Below are positions 44,567 through 55,242 of a DNA stretch of 64,000 bases, in pieces. A program made the position numbers and the translations under genes. The stretch is from Bacteroides mediterraneensis. GTDB lineage: Bacteria > Bacteroidota > Bacteroidia > Bacteroidales > Bacteroidaceae. Under the pieces are notes generated by a model, which saw nothing but the letters and a program-made list of their open reading frames with translations, made no database searches and was not told the DNA's origin. Position 1 is the first letter of the stretch; every line of letters begins with the position of its first letter. Location of the stretch: contig NZ_LT635783.1 in the NCBI RefSeq assembly GCF_900128455.1, positions 3,594,359-3,658,358 on the forward strand, in the 5' to 3' direction.

Positions 44567-47080
44567 ATGTTTTCCACTTCTTCCAAAATCGTACTCGGCT
44601 ACATCGTACTGGTCGGGCTGCTGATGGGAGCCTTTACCTACACCATCCAGCAGATGAACCTGCTCACCACTCCCTCCAACCTGAACGAACAGCTGGACCA
44701 TCGCCGCCACATCACCCACCGCATCATCAGCCAGCTGTATGATGCGGAAATCATCGGACAGACCCTGCGTACCGGCAAACTGAATGAATACTATCATTAT
44801 CTGGAGGCCATGAAAGAAGTGAATGCATCCATCGATACCTTGGAAATCATTCTGACCGACACCTTGCAGCAGGCCCGTCTGGATACGGTGAGGAGTCTGC
44901 TGCGCCACAAACAATGGAATATGTATGCCGTGCTGGAGGCCATGCGGAACACGCCGACCGACCAGATTTATCAGGAACAGCTGGACAGCCTGATTGCCCA
45001 GCAGGATTCCTTGCTCAGCACACCTCACATACGGAGAAAAGTCATCACGCACCACAATTCCTACACTATCCATCATAAAAAGAAAGGATTCTTCAAACGC
45101 CTGGCCGACGTATTCGCCCCGGGAAAGGAGGACTCTACCCAAGTGAGCAACGTGATACAAGAAGAATATACCGATACACTCGATGAGGTATATAACCCCA
45201 TCGACACCATCAGCAGCATGATTACGGGCATCCAGCACAAGGTGTTCCAGACCCGGCAGAGAGAAACTGAAATGCTGAACGCACAAATCAACAGCCTCCG
45301 CGTCATTGGAAGCGGCCTCAGCCAGCGCGTCAACCAGCTGCTGGAGAACATTGAACAGGATGAACAGGAAGCAGCCCGCATCAAGCTGATGCAAGAGGAA
45401 GAGATACGGAAAGAGGCAGCCGAAACCATGGCGAAAATTGCCATTGCGGCCTTCATTCTGGTACTGGTGTTCTCCATCGTCATCGCTCGAGATATCACCC
45501 GCAACAACCACTACCGGAGAGAACTGGAGAAGGCCAAACTGTATGCCGAGAACTTGCTGGTGGCCCGCGAGAAACTGATGCTGACCATCACACACGATAT
45601 CAAGGCTCCGGCCGGCTCCATCATCGGCTACATCGATCTTCTCATCCGGCTGGTTCACGACCGGAGACAGCAGTTCTACCTGTCGAACATGAAAAGCTCG
45701 GCCCAGCACCTGCTGGCTCTCGTCACCTCCCTACTCGACTACCATCGGCTGGAAGCCGGAAAAATGGATCTGCACCCGGTGGCCTTCAGTCCCCACGAAT
45801 TGCTGACCGACATCTACCACAGCTTTCTGCCTCTCGCCGAGAAAAAACAACTCCAATTGACTTTCGACGACAAGCTTCCGGAGTCACTTACCTTGGAAGG
45901 GGACCCTTTCCGCATCCGACAGATTGTGGAGAACCTGCTGTCGAACGCCCTGAAGTTTACGGCAACCGGAAAAATCACGCTGGAAACAGAATACCATGGC
46001 AACCAGTTTGTGTTCCGTGTTTCGGATACGGGTTGCGGCATGACCGCCAAAGAACAGGAACGGATTTTCAAGGAATTCACCCGTCTGCGCAGCGCCCAGG
46101 GACAGGAAGGCTTCGGACTGGGACTTTCCATCACGCACAAGCTGGTGGAACTGCTGCTGGGAAAAATCGAGATTGAAAGTACTCCGGGCAAAGGCAGTAC
46201 CTTCCAGGTATCCATGCCCTTGCCTTCCATCGCCTCCAAGACCGTTCAAGAAACGACAGAGGTGCCGCTCACCCTACCGGAAACCTTGTTGCGGGTACTC
46301 ATCATTGATGACGACCGGATACAGATGCATCTCACGGAAGCCATGCTCCACAACGTCGCGGAGGAAGTGAAAGGACTAAAAGTGGAAACCGTCTGCTGTG
46401 AACATCCGGAAGAGCTTGTGGCCCAGCTACAGGCACACACCTTCCACCTGCTGTTCACTGACATCCAGATGCCGGCGATGAACGGATTCGAACTTCTCAA
46501 ACATCTCCGCAGCCTGTCGCTGCCGCAAGCCCAGTCCATCCCGGTCATTGCCATTACAGCCCGCGGAGATATGGACGAAAACGATTTCCGTCAGAAAGGA
46601 TTTGCCGGCATGCTGCAAAAGCCTTTCAACCAGTCGGATCTGAAAACGGTATTGAAGGCTGTGTTGTTCGGGGAAGAAACGAATCCGGACACAGTCTGCC
46701 AAGAAATCCCTCAGGAAAAACAGACAACGGAAGGAACGTACAACTTTTCTCCATTGACTGCCTTTTCGGAGGATGACCCTGAAGCAGCCAGAGAAATCCT
46801 CCGGACATTCGCACAGGAAACCCGCAAGAACCTGGAAAAGATACAGGTTGCCCTGCAAGCGGAAGACATGGAAACCTTGTGCGCCGTGGCGCATAAGATG
46901 TTGCCTACCTTCCTCATGATTGAGGCCAGACAGGCAGTTCCTTCCCTTCAATGGCTGGAACAACAGAGGGGCACACACACTTATTCACCCGAAGCCGCAC
47001 GGGCTGCAAGCCTTATAGTGGAAGAAACACAAAAAATCCTTGAGTGTAAAATATTGAAGGATGCGGAAAGGGTATCGTAA
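44567..47080 (+). CDS. Hybrid histidine kinase with receiver and HPt domains
   Basis: 837 aa. TM1 about 7-27 (IVLGYIVLVGLLMGAFTYTI), then a periplasmic sensor of about 260 residues with coiled-coil character. TM2 about 287-306 (MAKIAIAAFILVLVFSIVIA). HisKA with LTITHDIKAPAGS (His343); HATPase with IVENLLSNALKFTATGKI, VSDTGCGM and GFGLGLSITHKLVE. A receiver domain (LLRVLIIDDDRIQM, acceptor Asp in LLFTDIQMPAMNGFE) is followed by a C-terminal HPt domain (CAVAHKMLPTFLMIEA). So it can run a full phosphorelay and most likely phosphorylates the NtrC-type regulator 38 nt downstream. Confidence 0.95.
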   Translation: MFSTSSKIVLGYIVLVGLLMGAFTYTIQQMNLLTTPSNLNEQLDHRRHITHRIISQLYDAEIIGQTLRTGKLNEYYHYLEAMKEVNASIDTLEIILTDTLQQARLDTVRSLLRHKQWNMYAVLEAMRNTPTDQIYQEQLDSLIAQQDSLLSTPHIRRKVITHHNSYTIHHKKKGFFKRLADVFAPGKEDSTQVSNVIQEEYTDTLDEVYNPIDTISSMITGIQHKVFQTRQRETEMLNAQINSLRVIGSGLSQRVNQLLENIEQDEQEAARIKLMQEEEIRKEAAETMAKIAIAAFILVLVFSIVIARDITRNNHYRRELEKAKLYAENLLVAREKLMLTITHDIKAPAGSIIGYIDLLIRLVHDRRQQFYLSNMKSSAQHLLALVTSLLDYHRLEAGKMDLHPVAFSPHELLTDIYHSFLPLAEKKQLQLTFDDKLPESLTLEGDPFRIRQIVENLLSNALKFTATGKITLETEYHGNQFVFRVSDTGCGMTAKEQERIFKEFTRLRSAQGQEGFGLGLSITHKLVELLLGKIEIESTPGKGSTFQVSMPLPSIASKTVQETTEVPLTLPETLLRVLIIDDDRIQMHLTEAMLHNVAEEVKGLKVETVCCEHPEELVAQLQAHTFHLLFTDIQMPAMNGFELLKHLRSLSLPQAQSIPVIAITARGDMDENDFRQKGFAGMLQKPFNQSDLKTVLKAVLFGEETNPDTVCQEIPQEKQTTEGTYNFSPLTAFSEDDPEAAREILRTFAQETRKNLEKIQVALQAEDMETLCAVAHKMLPTFLMIEARQAVPSLQWLEQQRGTHTYSPEAARAASLIVEETQKILECKILKDAERVS

Positions 47081-47118: not shown

Positions 47119-48471
47119 ATGGTTCCGTCTATATTAATCGTTGAAGATGACTTAACATTCTCTACCATGCTAAAAACTTGGCTGGGGAAAAAAGGGTTTG
47201 AAGTGGAAACTGCGAGCACACAGGCAAAAGCGCGCAAGCAACTCGGTACGCGTAGTTTTGACCTGATTCTGTCCGACTTGCGTCTCCCTGACCAAGACGG
47301 GATGAATCTGCTTTCCTGGTTACGGGAACAGCAGAATGAGGTTCCTTTCATCATCATGACCAGCTATGCAGAAATACAAAGTGCCGTACGGGCCATGAAA
47401 GAAGGAGCTACGGACTATATCTCCAAACCGGTACAGCCCGATGAACTACTGAAAAAAATCAGAGAAGCCATCCAACCGGAAAAACCGTCTTCCCCTTCTG
47501 AGAAGAAAACGGTCTCTCCGACCGCCCACAGCTTTCTGGAAGGAGAAAGTGAAGAGGCCCGGAAACTTTACAATTATGTCAGCCTGGTAGCCCCTACCCA
47601 AATGTCTGTACTCATCAACGGAGCCAGCGGAACCGGTAAGGAATATGTGGCTCACCGTATCCACCAGCTCAGCAAACGTGCGGACAAACCTTTCATCGCC
47701 ATTGACTGCGGCTCCATTCCCAAGGACTTGGCGGCTTCCGAATTCTTCGGACACGTGAAAGGCTCGTTCACCGGTGCCTTGAATGACAAAGTGGGAGCTT
47801 TTGAGGAAGCCAACGGCGGAACTCTTTTCCTCGACGAAATCGGAAACCTGAGCTATGAGGTACAGGTACAGCTGTTGCGTGCCCTGCAAGAACGGCGCAT
47901 CCGCCGTATCGGTTCTACCAAAGAAATAGAGGTCGATGTCCGATTGGTCAGTGCAACCAATGAGAATCTGAAAGAAGCCATCGCAAAGGGAAATTTCAGG
48001 GAAGACTTGTATCACCGTATCAACGAGTTCACCTTGCAAATGCCAGCCCTAAAAGAACGTCAGGAAGACATTCTGCTGTTTGCCAATTTCTTTCTGGACC
48101 AGGCTAACCGTGAACTGGAACGTACATTAATCGGATTCGATGCACAAGCCAGCGAGGCCTTGCAAAAATATCCGTGGCCGGGCAACTTACGCCAGCTGAA
48201 GAATGTGGTCAAACGGGCTACCCTGCTGGCCCAAGGTGACTTCATTACCCTCAAAGATTTAGGAGAGGAAATCAGCGAAAGGAAAATACAGGAAAACGAC
48301 GGCCTGAAAACAGAAGAATCGTTCATGCTGCACGATGAAGAAACGGAAAAGCAACGCATCTTGAAGGCTTTGCAACAAACCGGACACAACAAGTCGAAGG
48401 CTGCCGCCTTACTGGGTATTGACCGGAAAACCTTATACAACAAGCTGAAACTTTATCAGATTCCACAATAA
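47119..48471 (+). CDS. Sigma-54-dependent (NtrC-family) response regulator
   Basis: 450 aa. Receiver domain with acidic pocket ED(10)D(11), phospho-acceptor Asp53 in LILSDLRLPDQDG and Lys103. AAA+ domain with Walker A GASGTGKE (168-175), the sigma-54 contact loop GSFTGA (215-220, a common variant of GAFTGA), Walker B GGTLFLDEIGNL, and arginine finger region FREDLYHRINEFTLQMPALK. C-terminal Fis-type helix-turn-helix (HNKSKAAALLGIDRKTLYNK). All motifs needed for activating RpoN promoters are intact. A matching -24/-12 promoter and repeat boxes lie directly after the gene. Confidence 0.96.
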   Translation: MVPSILIVEDDLTFSTMLKTWLGKKGFEVETASTQAKARKQLGTRSFDLILSDLRLPDQDGMNLLSWLREQQNEVPFIIMTSYAEIQSAVRAMKEGATDYISKPVQPDELLKKIREAIQPEKPSSPSEKKTVSPTAHSFLEGESEEARKLYNYVSLVAPTQMSVLINGASGTGKEYVAHRIHQLSKRADKPFIAIDCGSIPKDLAASEFFGHVKGSFTGALNDKVGAFEEANGGTLFLDEIGNLSYEVQVQLLRALQERRIRRIGSTKEIEVDVRLVSATNENLKEAIAKGNFREDLYHRINEFTLQMPALKERQEDILLFANFFLDQANRELERTLIGFDAQASEALQKYPWPGNLRQLKNVVKRATLLAQGDFITLKDLGEEISERKIQENDGLKTEESFMLHDEETEKQRILKALQQTGHNKSKAAALLGIDRKTLYNKLKLYQIPQ

Positions 48472-48511
48472 ACGTGTGGAATATTTCCACACGTTCCACA
48501 CTTATTCCACA
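48461..48511 (+). promoter_or_regulatory. Clustered TTCCACA boxes, probable activator binding sites
   Basis: TTCCACA occurs at 48461, 48485, 48494 and 48505, and its reverse TGTGGAA at 48475. Two of them form a perfect palindrome with 11-bp arms and a 3-bp centre at 48471-48495. The palindrome centre is about 97 bp upstream of the predicted start of transcription, a normal distance for NtrC-type enhancer sites. The first box is inside the end of the regulator gene. Confidence 0.65.
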
Positions 48512-48552
48512 GCGTTTGGTTTCTAAACCCCTTCTACAAGGCTTCTGGCGGT

Positions 48553-48568
48553 TTGGCACGGGTTTTGT
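48553..48568 (+). promoter_or_regulatory. Candidate sigma-54 (-24/-12) promoter
   Basis: TTGGCACG, four bases, TTGT. The -24 part matches the RpoN consensus YTGGCACG exactly and the spacing is right; the -12 part has T for C in TTGC. Predicted transcription start is near 48580. Confidence 0.65.
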
Positions 48569-48579
48569 GTTACATTCTA

Positions 48580-48767
48580 CAAATAAACAAAACAATGAAC
48601 AACCCAAACAAACTAGGCTAAACCCAACCCCATAGAATAAAGTTCTGAGATTGTTTACCTCAATTTAATTGAACTCTCAATTATTTTACAATCTCATGAT
48701 AAAATGAAGATGCCTATGTGTTAAGAGAAGGGGACGCTGTGAAGCGTTTACCTTCTTGTCTTTTTTT
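48580..48767 (+). ncRNA. Predicted sigma-54-driven small RNA (about 188 nt)
   Basis: The stretch between the -24/-12 promoter and an intrinsic terminator holds no plus-strand gene. Only tiny frames are present (for example eight codons from ATG 48595). The 5' 65 nt are A/C-rich and look unstructured. Then comes a stem TGAGATTGT/ACAATCTCA (48646-48654 with 48688-48696) enclosing a small TCAAT/ATTGA hairpin, and the terminator hairpin at 48726-48756. This layout is that of a trans-acting small RNA; a leader peptide transcript or a 3' regulatory RNA are alternatives. Confidence 0.5.
48726..48767 (+). terminator. Intrinsic terminator of the predicted small RNA
   Basis: AGAAGGGGACGCT pairs with AGCGTTT-CCTTCT (one bulged A, GTGA loop) and runs into TGTCTTTTTTT. 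The T run overlaps the stop codon of the convergent pseudouridine synthase gene. Confidence 0.8.
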
Positions 48768-49437
48768 ATACCATCCCAAAACCTTTCCAGAGATTTCCTT
48801 CGGGAAGAGGAGCTACCAGTTCGATGGGTTCCTTGGACACCGGATGGATAAACCGTACCCTGCGGGCATGCAAACAGATACTTCCATCGGGGTTGGAGCG
48901 CGGAAAACCGTATTTCAAATCGCCTTTGATAGGGCATCCCATCTTGGCCAGCTGACACCGTATCTGATGATGACGTCCGGTCTTCAGGTCTACTTCCAGC
49001 AGATAATAATTTTCCGAACGGCCTATCAGGCGGTAATGAAGGACTGCTTTCTTAGAGTTCTTCACCTCCTTATCGTAAGCGTACGATTTATTCTGTTTTT
49101 CGTTTCTGACCAGATAGTGCACCAGTTCTCCTTCCGTTTCCTTGGGTGCCTGCTTCACAATGGCCCAATAGGTCTTCTTCACCTCCCCGTTGCGGAACAT
49201 TTCGTTCAGACGGCTCAAGGCCTTGCTCGTCTTGGCAAATACCACCAGCCCACTTACCGGACGGTCCAACCGGTGTGTCACTCCCAGGAACACATTGCCC
49301 GGCTTGGCATATTTTTCCTTCAAATATTGCTTCACGGTTTCCGACAAAGGCACGTCGCCTGTCTTATCACCCTGCACTATTTCTGAAGCAGTCTTATTGA
49401 CTACTATGATGTGATTATCTTCGTAAACTACTGTCAT
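48766..49437 (-). CDS. RluA-family 23S rRNA/tRNA pseudouridine synthase
   Basis: 223 aa from Met 49437 (MTVVYEDNHIIVVNK), the usual family start. The frame extends to 49500, but that part is the fabG terminator. Catalytic Asp in VTHRLDRPVSGLVVFAKT. Other conserved stretches: KTYWAIV, LLEVDLKTGRHHQIRCQLA, GDLKYGF, CLHARRVRFIHP. No S4 domain, so a short RluA-type enzyme; exact target base unknown. Convergent with the predicted small RNA. Confidence 0.93.
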   Translation of the reverse strand: MTVVYEDNHIIVVNKTASEIVQGDKTGDVPLSETVKQYLKEKYAKPGNVFLGVTHRLDRPVSGLVVFAKTSKALSRLNEMFRNGEVKKTYWAIVKQAPKETEGELVHYLVRNEKQNKSYAYDKEVKNSKKAVLHYRLIGRSENYYLLEVDLKTGRHHQIRCQLAKMGCPIKGDLKYGFPRSNPDGSICLHARRVRFIHPVSKEPIELVAPLPEGNLWKGFGMV

Positions 49438-49448
49438 ATACAAAAAAA

Positions 49449-49499
49449 TGAAGAACAGGAAATGAAAGAAAGCAGCTTCCCCCGATTCCCTATTCTTCA
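49449..49499 (-). terminator. Intrinsic terminator of tetR-fabG
   Basis: TGAAGAA/TTCTTCA outer stem with further GGGAA/TTTCC pairing, followed on the minus strand by seven T. It lies 22 nt past the fabG stop. Confidence 0.75.
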
Positions 49500-49521
49500 C
49501 TCTCTATTATTATGGTTTGTA

Positions 49522-51078: not shown

Positions 51079-51110
51079 TTTGCTTTTATAAAACTAAGTC
51101 CGTACCTTTG
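51079..51110 (+). promoter_or_regulatory. Canonical promoter of the tRNA-fMet genes
   Basis: TTTG, 20-nt spacer, TACCTTTG; exact consensus, 22 nt before the first tRNA. Confidence 0.8.
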
Positions 51111-51132
51111 CACCGCATTTAAGAAAAAACAT

Positions 51133-51205
<73 letters not shown>

Positions 51206-51219
51206 CTAAAAGCGAATAT

Positions 51220-51295
<76 letters not shown>

Positions 51296-51299
51296 AGTA

Positions 51300-51331
51300 G
51301 AGGCTGTCTCAAAATGAATTGAGATGGCCTC
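51300..51331. repeat. Left end of the IS1182 element, self-complementary
   Basis: GAGGC-TG-TCTCAA and TTGAGA-TG-GCCTC can fold on themselves around a 6-nt loop, so the terminus is itself a hairpin. The right end (53068-53105) has the same design. Confidence 0.75.
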
Positions 51332-51444
51332 TGTCGTTTCATATCAGACTGAAGTCGTTTGGATTTTTCTCAAAAAAAGGAATTTACAAGTTTCTTTCTA
51401 CAGATTTCATCGCTTTAAACGGTTTTTTCTTGGTCAGAAGCCTC

Positions 51445-54850: not shown

Positions 54851-54925
54851 TGGGCGTTGACGGATTCGAACCGCCGACCCTCTGCTTGTAAGGCAGATGC
54901 TCTGAACCAGCTGAGCTAAACGCCC
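54851..54925 (-). tRNA. tRNA-Val (TAC), copy 4 of the array
   Basis: Full cloverleaf with anticodon loop CTTACAA (anticodon TAC), T-loop TTCGAAT, acceptor GGGCGTT/AACGCCC. CCA is not encoded. Confidence 0.96.
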
Positions 54926-54955
54926 AATAAGGGAAAGTTGACAATTAATTCGGTG

Positions 54956-55030
54956 TGGGCGTTGACGGATTCGAACCGCCGACCCTCTGCTTGTAAGGCA
55001 GATGCTCTGAACCAGCTGAGCTAAACGCCC
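54956..55030 (-). tRNA. tRNA-Val (TAC), copy 3 of the array
   Basis: Identical to the neighbouring copies over 75 nt; separated from them by about 23-30 nt of unrelated spacer. CCA not encoded. Confidence 0.96.
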
Positions 55031-55053
55031 GAATAATCTTTCTTTTTGGGAAG

Positions 55054-55128
55054 TGGGCGTTGACGGATTCGAACCGCCGACCCTCTGCTTGTAAGGCAGA
55101 TGCTCTGAACCAGCTGAGCTAAACGCCC
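55054..55128 (-). tRNA. tRNA-Val (TAC), copy 2 of the array
   Basis: Identical 75-nt cloverleaf, anticodon TAC. CCA not encoded. Confidence 0.96.
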
Positions 55129-55167
55129 CAAAAAGAAAAAGCAATGATTTACGAGAAATTCGTTGAG

Positions 55168-55242
55168 TGGGCGTTGACGGATTCGAACCGCCGACCCTCT
55201 GCTTGTAAGGCAGATGCTCTGAACCAGCTGAGCTAAACGCCC
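55168..55242 (-). tRNA. tRNA-Val (TAC), copy 1 of the array
   Basis: Identical 75-nt cloverleaf, anticodon TAC; first transcribed copy, 27 nt after the promoter -7 box. CCA not encoded. Confidence 0.96.

Follow-up and report, generated by a model that had tools for sequence, protein, structure and literature searches.

NtrC-type activators working with sigma-54 can drive small regulatory RNAs (sRNAs): LuxO drives the Qrr sRNAs in this manner, CbrB is likewise of the NtrC type, and CrcZ-like RNAs titrate Hfq/Crc-type proteins through repeated A-rich motifs. A distinct set of sRNAs, prototyped by CpxQ, MicL and SgrS, is derived from 3′ untranslated regions (UTRs) or is dual-function, and couples a stress-regulated envelope-protein mRNA with a conserved seed. 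Here we analyze a predicted sRNA locus in a 64,000-nucleotide (nt) stretch of the Bacteroides mediterraneensis genome (positions 3594359-3658358 of its contig C1; hereafter the window), in which genes for a hybrid sensor kinase and an NtrC-type response regulator are followed by an array of TTCCACA boxes, a sigma-54-type promoter and a predicted transcript devoid of a conserved open reading frame (ORF) (Table 1). We propose that the kinase, the regulator and a sigma-54-dependent non-coding RNA, which would pair with and tune the mRNA of a co-regulated, multidrug-type RND efflux pump, constitute a single control system, and give this explanation as a whole a probability of roughly 0.6.

By analogy of architecture, the nearest described case appears to be CbrAB–CrcZ; by analogy with those relatives of the locus that carry an ORF in the same slot (ORF-type loci), it appears to be ZraSR–ZraP. 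CbrA/CbrB of Pseudomonas and Azotobacter is a two-component system with the RpoN-dependent sRNA CrcZ encoded beside the regulator gene (PMC6292655; this and the other papers cited are drawn on for the parts covered), an arrangement also seen at the window locus. CrcZ antagonizes Hfq–Crc in carbon control, whereas shared boxes and complementarity point the window RNA toward an efflux mRNA. The NtrC-type GlrR, with repeats and sigma-54, drives the sRNAs GlmY and GlmZ (PMC4987338); these and Qrr differ from the window RNA in phylum and in the RNAs themselves, and the RNA region has no Rfam match at the gathering threshold or up to an E-value of 1. ZraR activates the sigma-54 promoter of a periplasmic protein gene beside zraSR (PMC4987338), much as in the ORF-type relatives, whereas the window's clade no longer has the protein and retains an RNA; none of the seven exported slot proteins scanned gave a ZraP-type Pfam match.

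The Bacteroidales have other sRNAs, namely GibS, BatR, the FopS family and MasB, of which GibS and BatR pair with translation initiation regions (PMC7366714, PMC10861873). GibS and FopS are described with sigma-ABfr or PM2 promoters and BatR with a −7 box (PMC11697453, PMC10861873), whereas the window RNA has a sigma-54-type promoter and no exact sigma-ABfr promoter (TTTG-N16-24-TAnnTTTG) occurs in 48471-48640. The parts covered of four papers on Bacteroides sRNAs (PMC7366714, PMC10994844, PMC11697453, PMC10861873) name no RpoN-dependent sRNA, and a search of PMC7366714, PMC10994844 and PMC10861873 for the words rpoN and sigma54 found neither; in the open-licence literature we found no description of a sigma-54 sRNA/efflux-pump system. 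Unlike the case of CpxQ, MicL and SgrS, at the window slot the ORF is lost in whole clades while the promoter and RNA persist. If the proposal is correct, it would add a sigma-54 sRNA with a predicted target in Bacteroidota and place an efflux pump of gut commensals under post-transcriptional control; it would also make one locus a natural series of conversions from mRNA to sRNA, in which the origin of regulatory RNAs from coding genes becomes testable.

A predicted sigma-54-type transcription unit beside the regulator gene

The initial annotation of this DNA had described four TTCCACA boxes with one reverse copy, a promoter-like element, a strong intrinsic terminator and a convergent next gene, and all four elements are found upon direct reading and pattern searching. 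The boxes lie at 48461, 48485, 48494 and 48505 on the plus strand and at 48475 on the minus strand, with a palindrome at 48471-48495, whose 11-bp arms (AACGTGTGGAA-TAT-TTCCACACGTT) touch the stop codon of the regulator; the box centres lie 46-90 bp upstream of the −24 element. As a heptamer, TTCCACA is frequent (29 copies in the window, 12.5 expected); the cluster of five copies within 51 bp occurs there once. The promoter is the sole match in the window (TTGGCACGGGTTTTGT) even with one mismatch allowed. Nevertheless, the motif by itself is weak because 40 of 100 shuffled windows contain at least one match (0.48 expected). It is conservation that renders the case strong: of the 31 RNA loci inspected in the window's genus, 30 have the promoter (the remaining one, L100, has a variant TGGAAC at −24), 29 have at least two boxes, 29 have the regulator upstream and 30 have an RluA-type gene downstream. 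Taking T48568 as the −12 position, the transcript is predicted to start near 48580, and the terminator lies about 160 nt past the −24/−12 element.

The regulator displays the domain complement of the NtrC family with the loop GSFTGA, a variant of GAFTGA; across the window regulator and 80 orthologues, GSFTGA is seen in 67 of 81 and GAFTGA in 13, with none found in one. The element at 48553-48568 is accompanied by a single rpoN-type gene in the genome (detected with Sigma54_DBD). The hybrid sensor kinase, which likely serves as the phosphorelay input judging from its domains, has in addition an Hpt match just below threshold (23.9 bits against a Pfam cut-off of 24.6).

Table 1. Coordinates of the predicted RNA locus, its neighbors and the proposed target operon (window positions unless contig C1 is named)
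Feature	Position	Strand	Description	Basis
Hybrid sensor kinase	44567..47080	+	HATPase_c, Response_reg and HisKA over cut-off	Pfam
NtrC-type response regulator	47119..48471	+	Receiver, Sigma54_activat AAA+ domain, Fis-type helix-turn-helix	Pfam
Putative enhancer	48461..48511	+	Four TTCCACA and one TGTGGAA, partly palindromic	
−24/−12 sigma-54-type promoter	48553..48568	+	TTGGCACG-N4-TTGT	
Predicted small RNA	48580..48768	+	~185 nt	Start from −12 position, end from T-run
Conserved unpaired block 1	48621..48640	+	AACCCAACCCCATAGAATAA	Alignments A1, A2, A4
Hairpin 1	48647..48695	+	GAGATTGT ... ACAATCTC	Sequence variable, pairing kept
Invariant block 2	48706..48722	+	GAAGATGCCTATGTGTT, contains AGATGCC; proposed seed	28/28 distinct sequences; pairing tests
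Intrinsic terminator	48723..48767	+	ACGCT-GTGA-AGCGT hairpin in longer stem, then T7	Conserved GTGA(C) loop
RluA-family pseudouridine synthase, convergent	48766..49500	-		Pfam, NCBIfam
RND adaptor gene	C1 1071782-1072975		RND_mfp	TIGR01730, 277.9 bits against cut-off 94.9

Conservation and structure of the predicted RNA

The window locus presents a predicted RNA, conserved and structured, with its own promoter and terminator and no ORF. Its predicted minimum free energy is −38.2 kcal/mol (z −2.96). Among 28 distinct sequences the 17-nt block 2 is invariant in all and ACCCAACCCCAT is nearly so; the length of the RNA and the sequence of the hairpin vary. In an alignment fitted to the structural model, two-sided changes are seen at all seven modelled pairs of hairpin 1 and at 9 of the 13 terminator pairs (16 of 20 for both helices), and 94.8% of the cells are paired as opposed to at most 60.5% in slid controls. 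An unfitted MAFFT alignment of 11 sequences gives two-sided changes at 9 of the 20 pairs (4/7 in hairpin 1 and 5/13 in the terminator), with 91.7% of the cells paired against at most 61.6% in slid controls. An RNAalifold structure that pairs positions inside block 2 was not believed, as those invariant pairs never vary. In many species, not all, CAUAG of block 1 could pair with CUAUG of block 2.

Covariance searches, which the initial annotation had suggested, recover the RNA in the window's genus, and of the 31 loci inspected 29 have at least two TTCCACA boxes and 29 a regulator orthologue upstream. A model built from eleven loci (R1; alignments A1 and A2) matches 68 of 399 family genomes at an E-value of 0.01, and all 25 matches above 80 bits belong to the window's genus. 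A second model built from 31 sequences (R2) finds matches in 48 of 61 genus genomes. Of these, 32 score 89 bits or more, with a single match in each, 7 score 41-51 bits and 9 score 30-35 bits, the last of which look like chance; the other 13 genomes have none. Four of the seven intermediate genomes were inspected and all are ORF-type loci. Among 393 genomes of the order, R2 gives strong matches in only two, both from the window's genus and one of them the window's own. Thus, the earlier idea of a sigma-54-driven sRNA beside an NtrC-type regulator emerges as the best-supported reading, because boxes, −24/−12 element and regulator are found wherever the RNA is found (29-30 of 31 loci).

The comparison also took in the 80 regulator orthologues (the L-numbered loci), defining a module as a −24/−12 element with at least two boxes in the preceding 260 bp. 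Such a module lies downstream of the regulator in 37 of the 80 loci, in addition to the window, and is represented in Phocaeicola, Bacteroides, Paraprevotella, Alloprevotella, Xylanibacter, Muribaculaceae, Alistipes and other Bacteroidaceae; in L021 and L035 it is present at a wider gap. Scanning whole loci on both strands added only one further module, inside L028. None was found in any of the 25 loci L057-L081, mostly from Flavobacteriia and relatives. The 39 modules parsed, from loci up to L053, contain 103 boxes in forward and 33 in reverse orientation; most of these precede the −24 element by 50-125 bp and a few by 130-290 bp, and the spacings are mostly 9-12 or 19-24 bp, i.e., about one or two helical turns, as in helically phased sites. 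In L004 the promoter lies 1.7 kb from the regulator, with boxes, promoter and RNA still together.

An RND efflux operon with the same promoter signature

Sites of the form TGGCAY-N5-TTGY number 65 in the window's genome, and the reversed pattern yields 30. Only two of the 65 are preceded by more than one box hexamer, namely that of the window, with its five boxes, and that of an RND adaptor gene, with three TCCACA/TGTGGA hexamers. The ORF following the adaptor gene is AcrB-like (PF00873 on the first 77 codons), as in an RND efflux operon. A close orthologue of the adaptor occurs in 26 of 40 genus genomes; all 26 have a −24/−12 element before the ATG, and in 24, by visual count, a hexamer TGTGGA or TCCACA precedes that promoter. 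Since the same box-plus-sigma-54 signature precedes both, the RNA and the RND pump look co-regulated, and the regulator probably switches them on together.

AGAUGCC in block 2 is the complement of GGCAUCU in the leader of the pump mRNA. Across the 26 pump leaders, the hexamer found most often is GGCATC (22/26; the next non-overlapping one, ATTAAC, is found in 11), which is located at about +2 to +15 of the predicted pump mRNA in an otherwise diverged leader; by simple arithmetic, the chance of a given hexamer complementing some hexamer of a 17-mer is ~0.3%. We compared RNA and leader within genomes, using the 21 genomes, of the 26 with a close adaptor orthologue, whose RNA locus was used. For block 2 against the leader, 14 of the 19 pairs matched by genome have duplexfold z values between −1.2 and −2.4, because AGAUGCC faces GGCAUCU; in such pairs the 5′ part with block 1 gives no general duplexfold signal. 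The initial suggestion that the A/C-rich 5′ end would suit base pairing is not supported: the 5′ end is not conserved, and the match to the likely target falls in block 2 toward the 3′ end. Ranked against 320 start regions of the window's genome (from the window and 20 stretches of 20 kb, with uncurated ORF calls), the three of 23 28-nt RNA segments that contain AGATGCC place the pump leader 9-16 of 321, and the rest place it at 25 or beyond. The best ungapped helix, scored with stacking energies that are rough for G-U, is a 7-8 bp duplex in 15 of the 21 pairs, with ranks of 2-12 of 321; in one of these pairs the site is displaced by a base. Both ORF-type genomes tested show an 8-bp match (AAGATGCC with GGCATCTT) at rank 2.

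Two genome-wide searches for alternative partners were set aside. The block 1 seed TGGGGTTGGGT, with one mismatch, has 36 places in the genome versus 34 for a reversed control, with no convincing translation start among the 30 checked. The complement of block 2, with three mismatches, has 77 places versus 44 for the reversed control; of 30 checked, four lie near a possible start and none is convincing.

An independent comparison in Bacteroides

The predicted Bacteroides transcript of the homologous slot differs greatly in sequence and has a conserved segment CTGTTTATGTTTGTTTGTG and a 3′ element GCCGAAnAAnAGTAAGCACACTA plus terminator. A model of this 3′ element matches 78 of 119 genomes in the genus of genome G149, and the regulator lies upstream, within the stretch covered, in 21 of the 23 loci parsed out of 30 taken. 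Of the Bacteroides adaptor loci, 18 of 24 have a −24/−12 element within 110 nt of the ATG, and ACAAAC/CAAACA is the commonest motif of those 18 leaders (13/18). Twenty genomes match in both the 3′-element and adaptor searches. In 16 of them the pump leader is predicted to form 11-16 bp with the conserved segment or with its edge, at −15.8 kcal/mol or lower; these rank 1-12 of 321, eight of them first, and 0-3 of 100 dinucleotide shuffles do as well. Thus, complementarity is conserved in 16 of 20 Bacteroides pairs as it is, in a short form, in 15 of 21 Phocaeicola pairs. Six of the paired sites cover the start codon (e.g., TTTATGTTTGTTTGT with ACAAACAAGCATGAA), another six are near −37, two near −18 and one just before the AUG, while G829 pairs best near −31; a leader match at such shifting positions is hard to explain by shared descent alone.

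Duplexfold applied to whole Bacteroides RNAs produced long looped duplexes that are hard to read and was replaced by the best ungapped helix; with duplexfold, 17 of the 20 pairs were scored and nine reached z −1.9 or lower, with values of 0.9, −0.6, 0.0 and −1.6 for the theta-like genomes G814, G832, G848 and G824. Some Bacteroides leaders (L314, L315, L319, L321 and L324) contain ACAGGG as a second stretch, whose complement CCCUGU borders the main seed on its upstream side in the same RNA; this and the main seed site cannot both pair in one continuous duplex.

Proposed mechanism and its alternatives

The anatomy of the locus, its conservation, the covariation in its helices and its complementarity to the pump leader are direct observations. 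Building on them, we propose that the phosphorelay would activate the NtrC-type regulator, as its domains suggest, and that the latter would bind the phased TTCCACA boxes and drive RNA polymerase–sigma-54 at the promoters of both the RNA and the RND operon, as the shared boxes and promoters indicate. The RNA would then pair via AGAUGCC with the 5′ portion of the leader of the efflux mRNA, a step suggested by the conserved complementarity and independently by Bacteroides, and the pairing would tune pump synthesis. Repression seems the likelier sign because the duplex covers the start codon in 6 of 20 Bacteroides pairs; this would result in an incoherent feed-forward loop capping or delaying pump output. 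In Phocaeicola activation or protection of the 5′ end may be at work.

Several points weigh against this proposal. Transcription, RpoN dependence, box binding and pump regulation are predicted from sequence, and complementarity is no guide to the sign of regulation. The adaptor has no close orthologue in 14 of the 40 genus genomes. The Phocaeicola duplex is only 7-8 bp and not top-ranked (the window's own pair ranks 11 of 321); six of the 21 pairs lack it, two of these keeping 6 bp and four having no such best helix, and the best-ungapped-helix statistic around the conserved segment was devised post hoc, after the match had been seen. The location of GGCATC within ~15 nt of the predicted mRNA start could make it an initial-transcription signal. 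In Bacteroides, 4 of 20 pairs fail (G828, G840, G827 and G839), the genomes are close relatives and thus not independent, the ranking background comes from another genus, and in the earlier looped-duplex test 4 of 6 theta-like pairs gave z −1.6 or weaker. The initial annotation held that loss of the −24/−12 element and boxes in genomes keeping the regulator would tell against it: such loss is absent from 29-30 of the 31 RNA loci and is seen elsewhere. The Phocaeicola-like L013 and L014 keep the regulator with no module or RNA found (the stretch of L013 reaches only 2.7 kb downstream), and no module was found in the stretches scanned of L020, L022, L043, L045 and L049 or of the Tannerellaceae-type L041, L044, L051 and L053-L056, all of which keep the regulator. 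Finally, the conservation of block 1 almost equals that of the seed, and the pump leader offers it no partner.

The near-invariance of this unpartnered block, along with the shortness of the pump match in the window's genus, favors a sigma-54 regulatory RNA with targets other than the pump, wherein the C-rich block 1 and block 2 would pair with other mRNAs or bind a protein in a CrcZ-like manner. We deem this unlikely, though worth keeping in view, since the commonest hexamer of the pump leaders complements the invariant block and the unrelated Bacteroides RNA sequence matches the same mRNA more strongly. A mainly local action, as terminator, antisense on the convergent RluA-type gene or insulation, would account for the presence of that gene downstream in 30 of 31 loci and for a terminator ending at its stop codon. 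However, a terminator would not need block 1, hairpin 1 or block 2, there is no overlap between the RNA and the gene, and the only RluA-type match of L107 is ~1.5 kb away while L112 has none in a stretch that runs only 1.8 kb to the contig end; this role as the principal one is improbable.

We give as little credence to the transcript being a small mRNA. Most of the sequences can be read as M-K-M-P-M-C-stop (ATGAAGATGCCTATGTGTTAA), giving a tiny ORF in block 2 (MKMPMC or MPMC), and 8 of the 31 loci have an ORF of at least eight codons ending in NPTP, with block 1 read as AAC-CCA-ACC-CCA-TAG. In the first case the AUG is lost in 3 of 28 and the stop displaced in 1 of 28 sequences while all 17 nt, including wobble positions, are fixed, and ORF-type relatives keep GATGCC in another frame, past the stop codon. 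In the second, the eight reading frames differ in N-terminus and in start, just two of them opening with ATG, and the other 23 loci have none. ORFs of this size are lineage-specific, and no conserved ORF fits the RNA across the 31 genus loci. Equally far-fetched in our estimate is a functionless, decaying remnant of a lost mRNA, with selection acting only on the regulator's own promoter region: the ORF loss in the window's clade and the variation in size and hairpin sequence would agree with it, but not the invariant block and the compensatory changes in both helices among genomes whose regulators are 73-92% identical to that of the window.

Evolution of the slot

Outside the RNA clade, the first ORF past the promoter, in those loci where one is found, codes for a small exported-looking protein. 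Hence, the initial statement that the transcript has no coding target applies to the window's clade and fails in sister lineages, where the same promoter precedes such a protein. In Phocaeicola faecalis-type loci and a Muribaculaceae locus it is PepSY-like, a name resting on a sub-cut-off Pfam match (20.2 versus 28.3 bits), with 29% mutual identity. Elsewhere the slot proteins are lipoprotein-like coiled coils of ~300 amino acids (aa) or low-complexity acidic or proline-rich proteins; those of L018, L019, L023, L024, L030, L040, L042, L048, L050 and L052 are very unlike one another, with coiled coils, NDTVTTDS-type repeats and proline/glutamate-rich sequences. It is as if only export and regulation were kept.

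In the regulator tree, the window regulator groups within Phocaeicola-like Bacteroidaceae (nearest named row Bacteroides mediterraneensis, with 93% across 447 columns). All 11 RNA-type rows fall into a single clade (100/98). The ORF-type rows nearest to it are from Phocaeicola, a join with weak support, and others of the ORF type lie around it. ORF-type loci retain AAGATGCC and AAAGATGCC, together with a related terminator, past the stop codon. Of 14 Bacteroides loci, five have an in-frame start before signal-peptide codons (L015, L016, L025, L030 and L038), eight are without one but still contain TTATGTTTGTTTGTG, and the segment is gone from L026; some of the eight start-less loci can be read from an internal ATG into unlike frames. 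The non-coding Bacteroides rows require at least three changes on the regulator tree. Loss of the ORF is more plausible than its repeated gain, and on that inferred direction of change the ORF would have disappeared from the window's clade and, in separate events, from Bacteroides. On this reading, the slot would ancestrally have encoded a small exported protein, and the window's clade would have shed the ORF and retained the promoter, the 3′ seed and the terminator.

A broader form of this scenario, to which we give even odds, is that the slot repeatedly turned from an exported-protein mRNA into a pure sRNA in Bacteroidales, since the transcript already acted by base pairing on the co-induced RND pump. 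Under it, ORF and seed would be separable, the Bacteroides seed lying in former signal-peptide codons and surviving the loss of the start and the Phocaeicola seed lying in the 3′ UTR, and the pump leader would shift its site yet keep it.

Other sigma-54-type sites and genomic setting

Other intergenic sigma-54-type sites of the genome precede DnaK-, ClpB-, HtpG-, Hsp20-like and ABC/FtsX-like genes, named by a look at the sequence. Those before heat-shock-like genes agree with the sigma-54-dependent grpE and groES stated for B. thetaiotaomicron in the part covered of PMC12316311. The heat-shock-like and ABC/FtsX-like sites (L130, L134, L187, L188, L195 and L214, all in the window's own genome) have no TTCCACA clusters, and the pattern suggests that other enhancer-binding regulators serve them. 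In the same genome, a TTCCACA pair is found upstream of a lipoprotein-like ORF (L085, C1 164509-164536), with no sigma-54-type element marked in the stretch shown.

The RluA-type gene is a frequent neighbor that stands outside the regulatory system. Among the orthologue loci, L022 is a Roseburia-titled record with a Bacteroidaceae-like regulator locus, which is probably a binning error. Farther along the window, an 82-aa ORF antisense to a first pair of tRNA genes (51133-51292) is probably spurious; tandem tRNA genes with equal scores lie within 51094-51342 and 54851-55242, two of them at 51133-51292 and four at 54851-55242.

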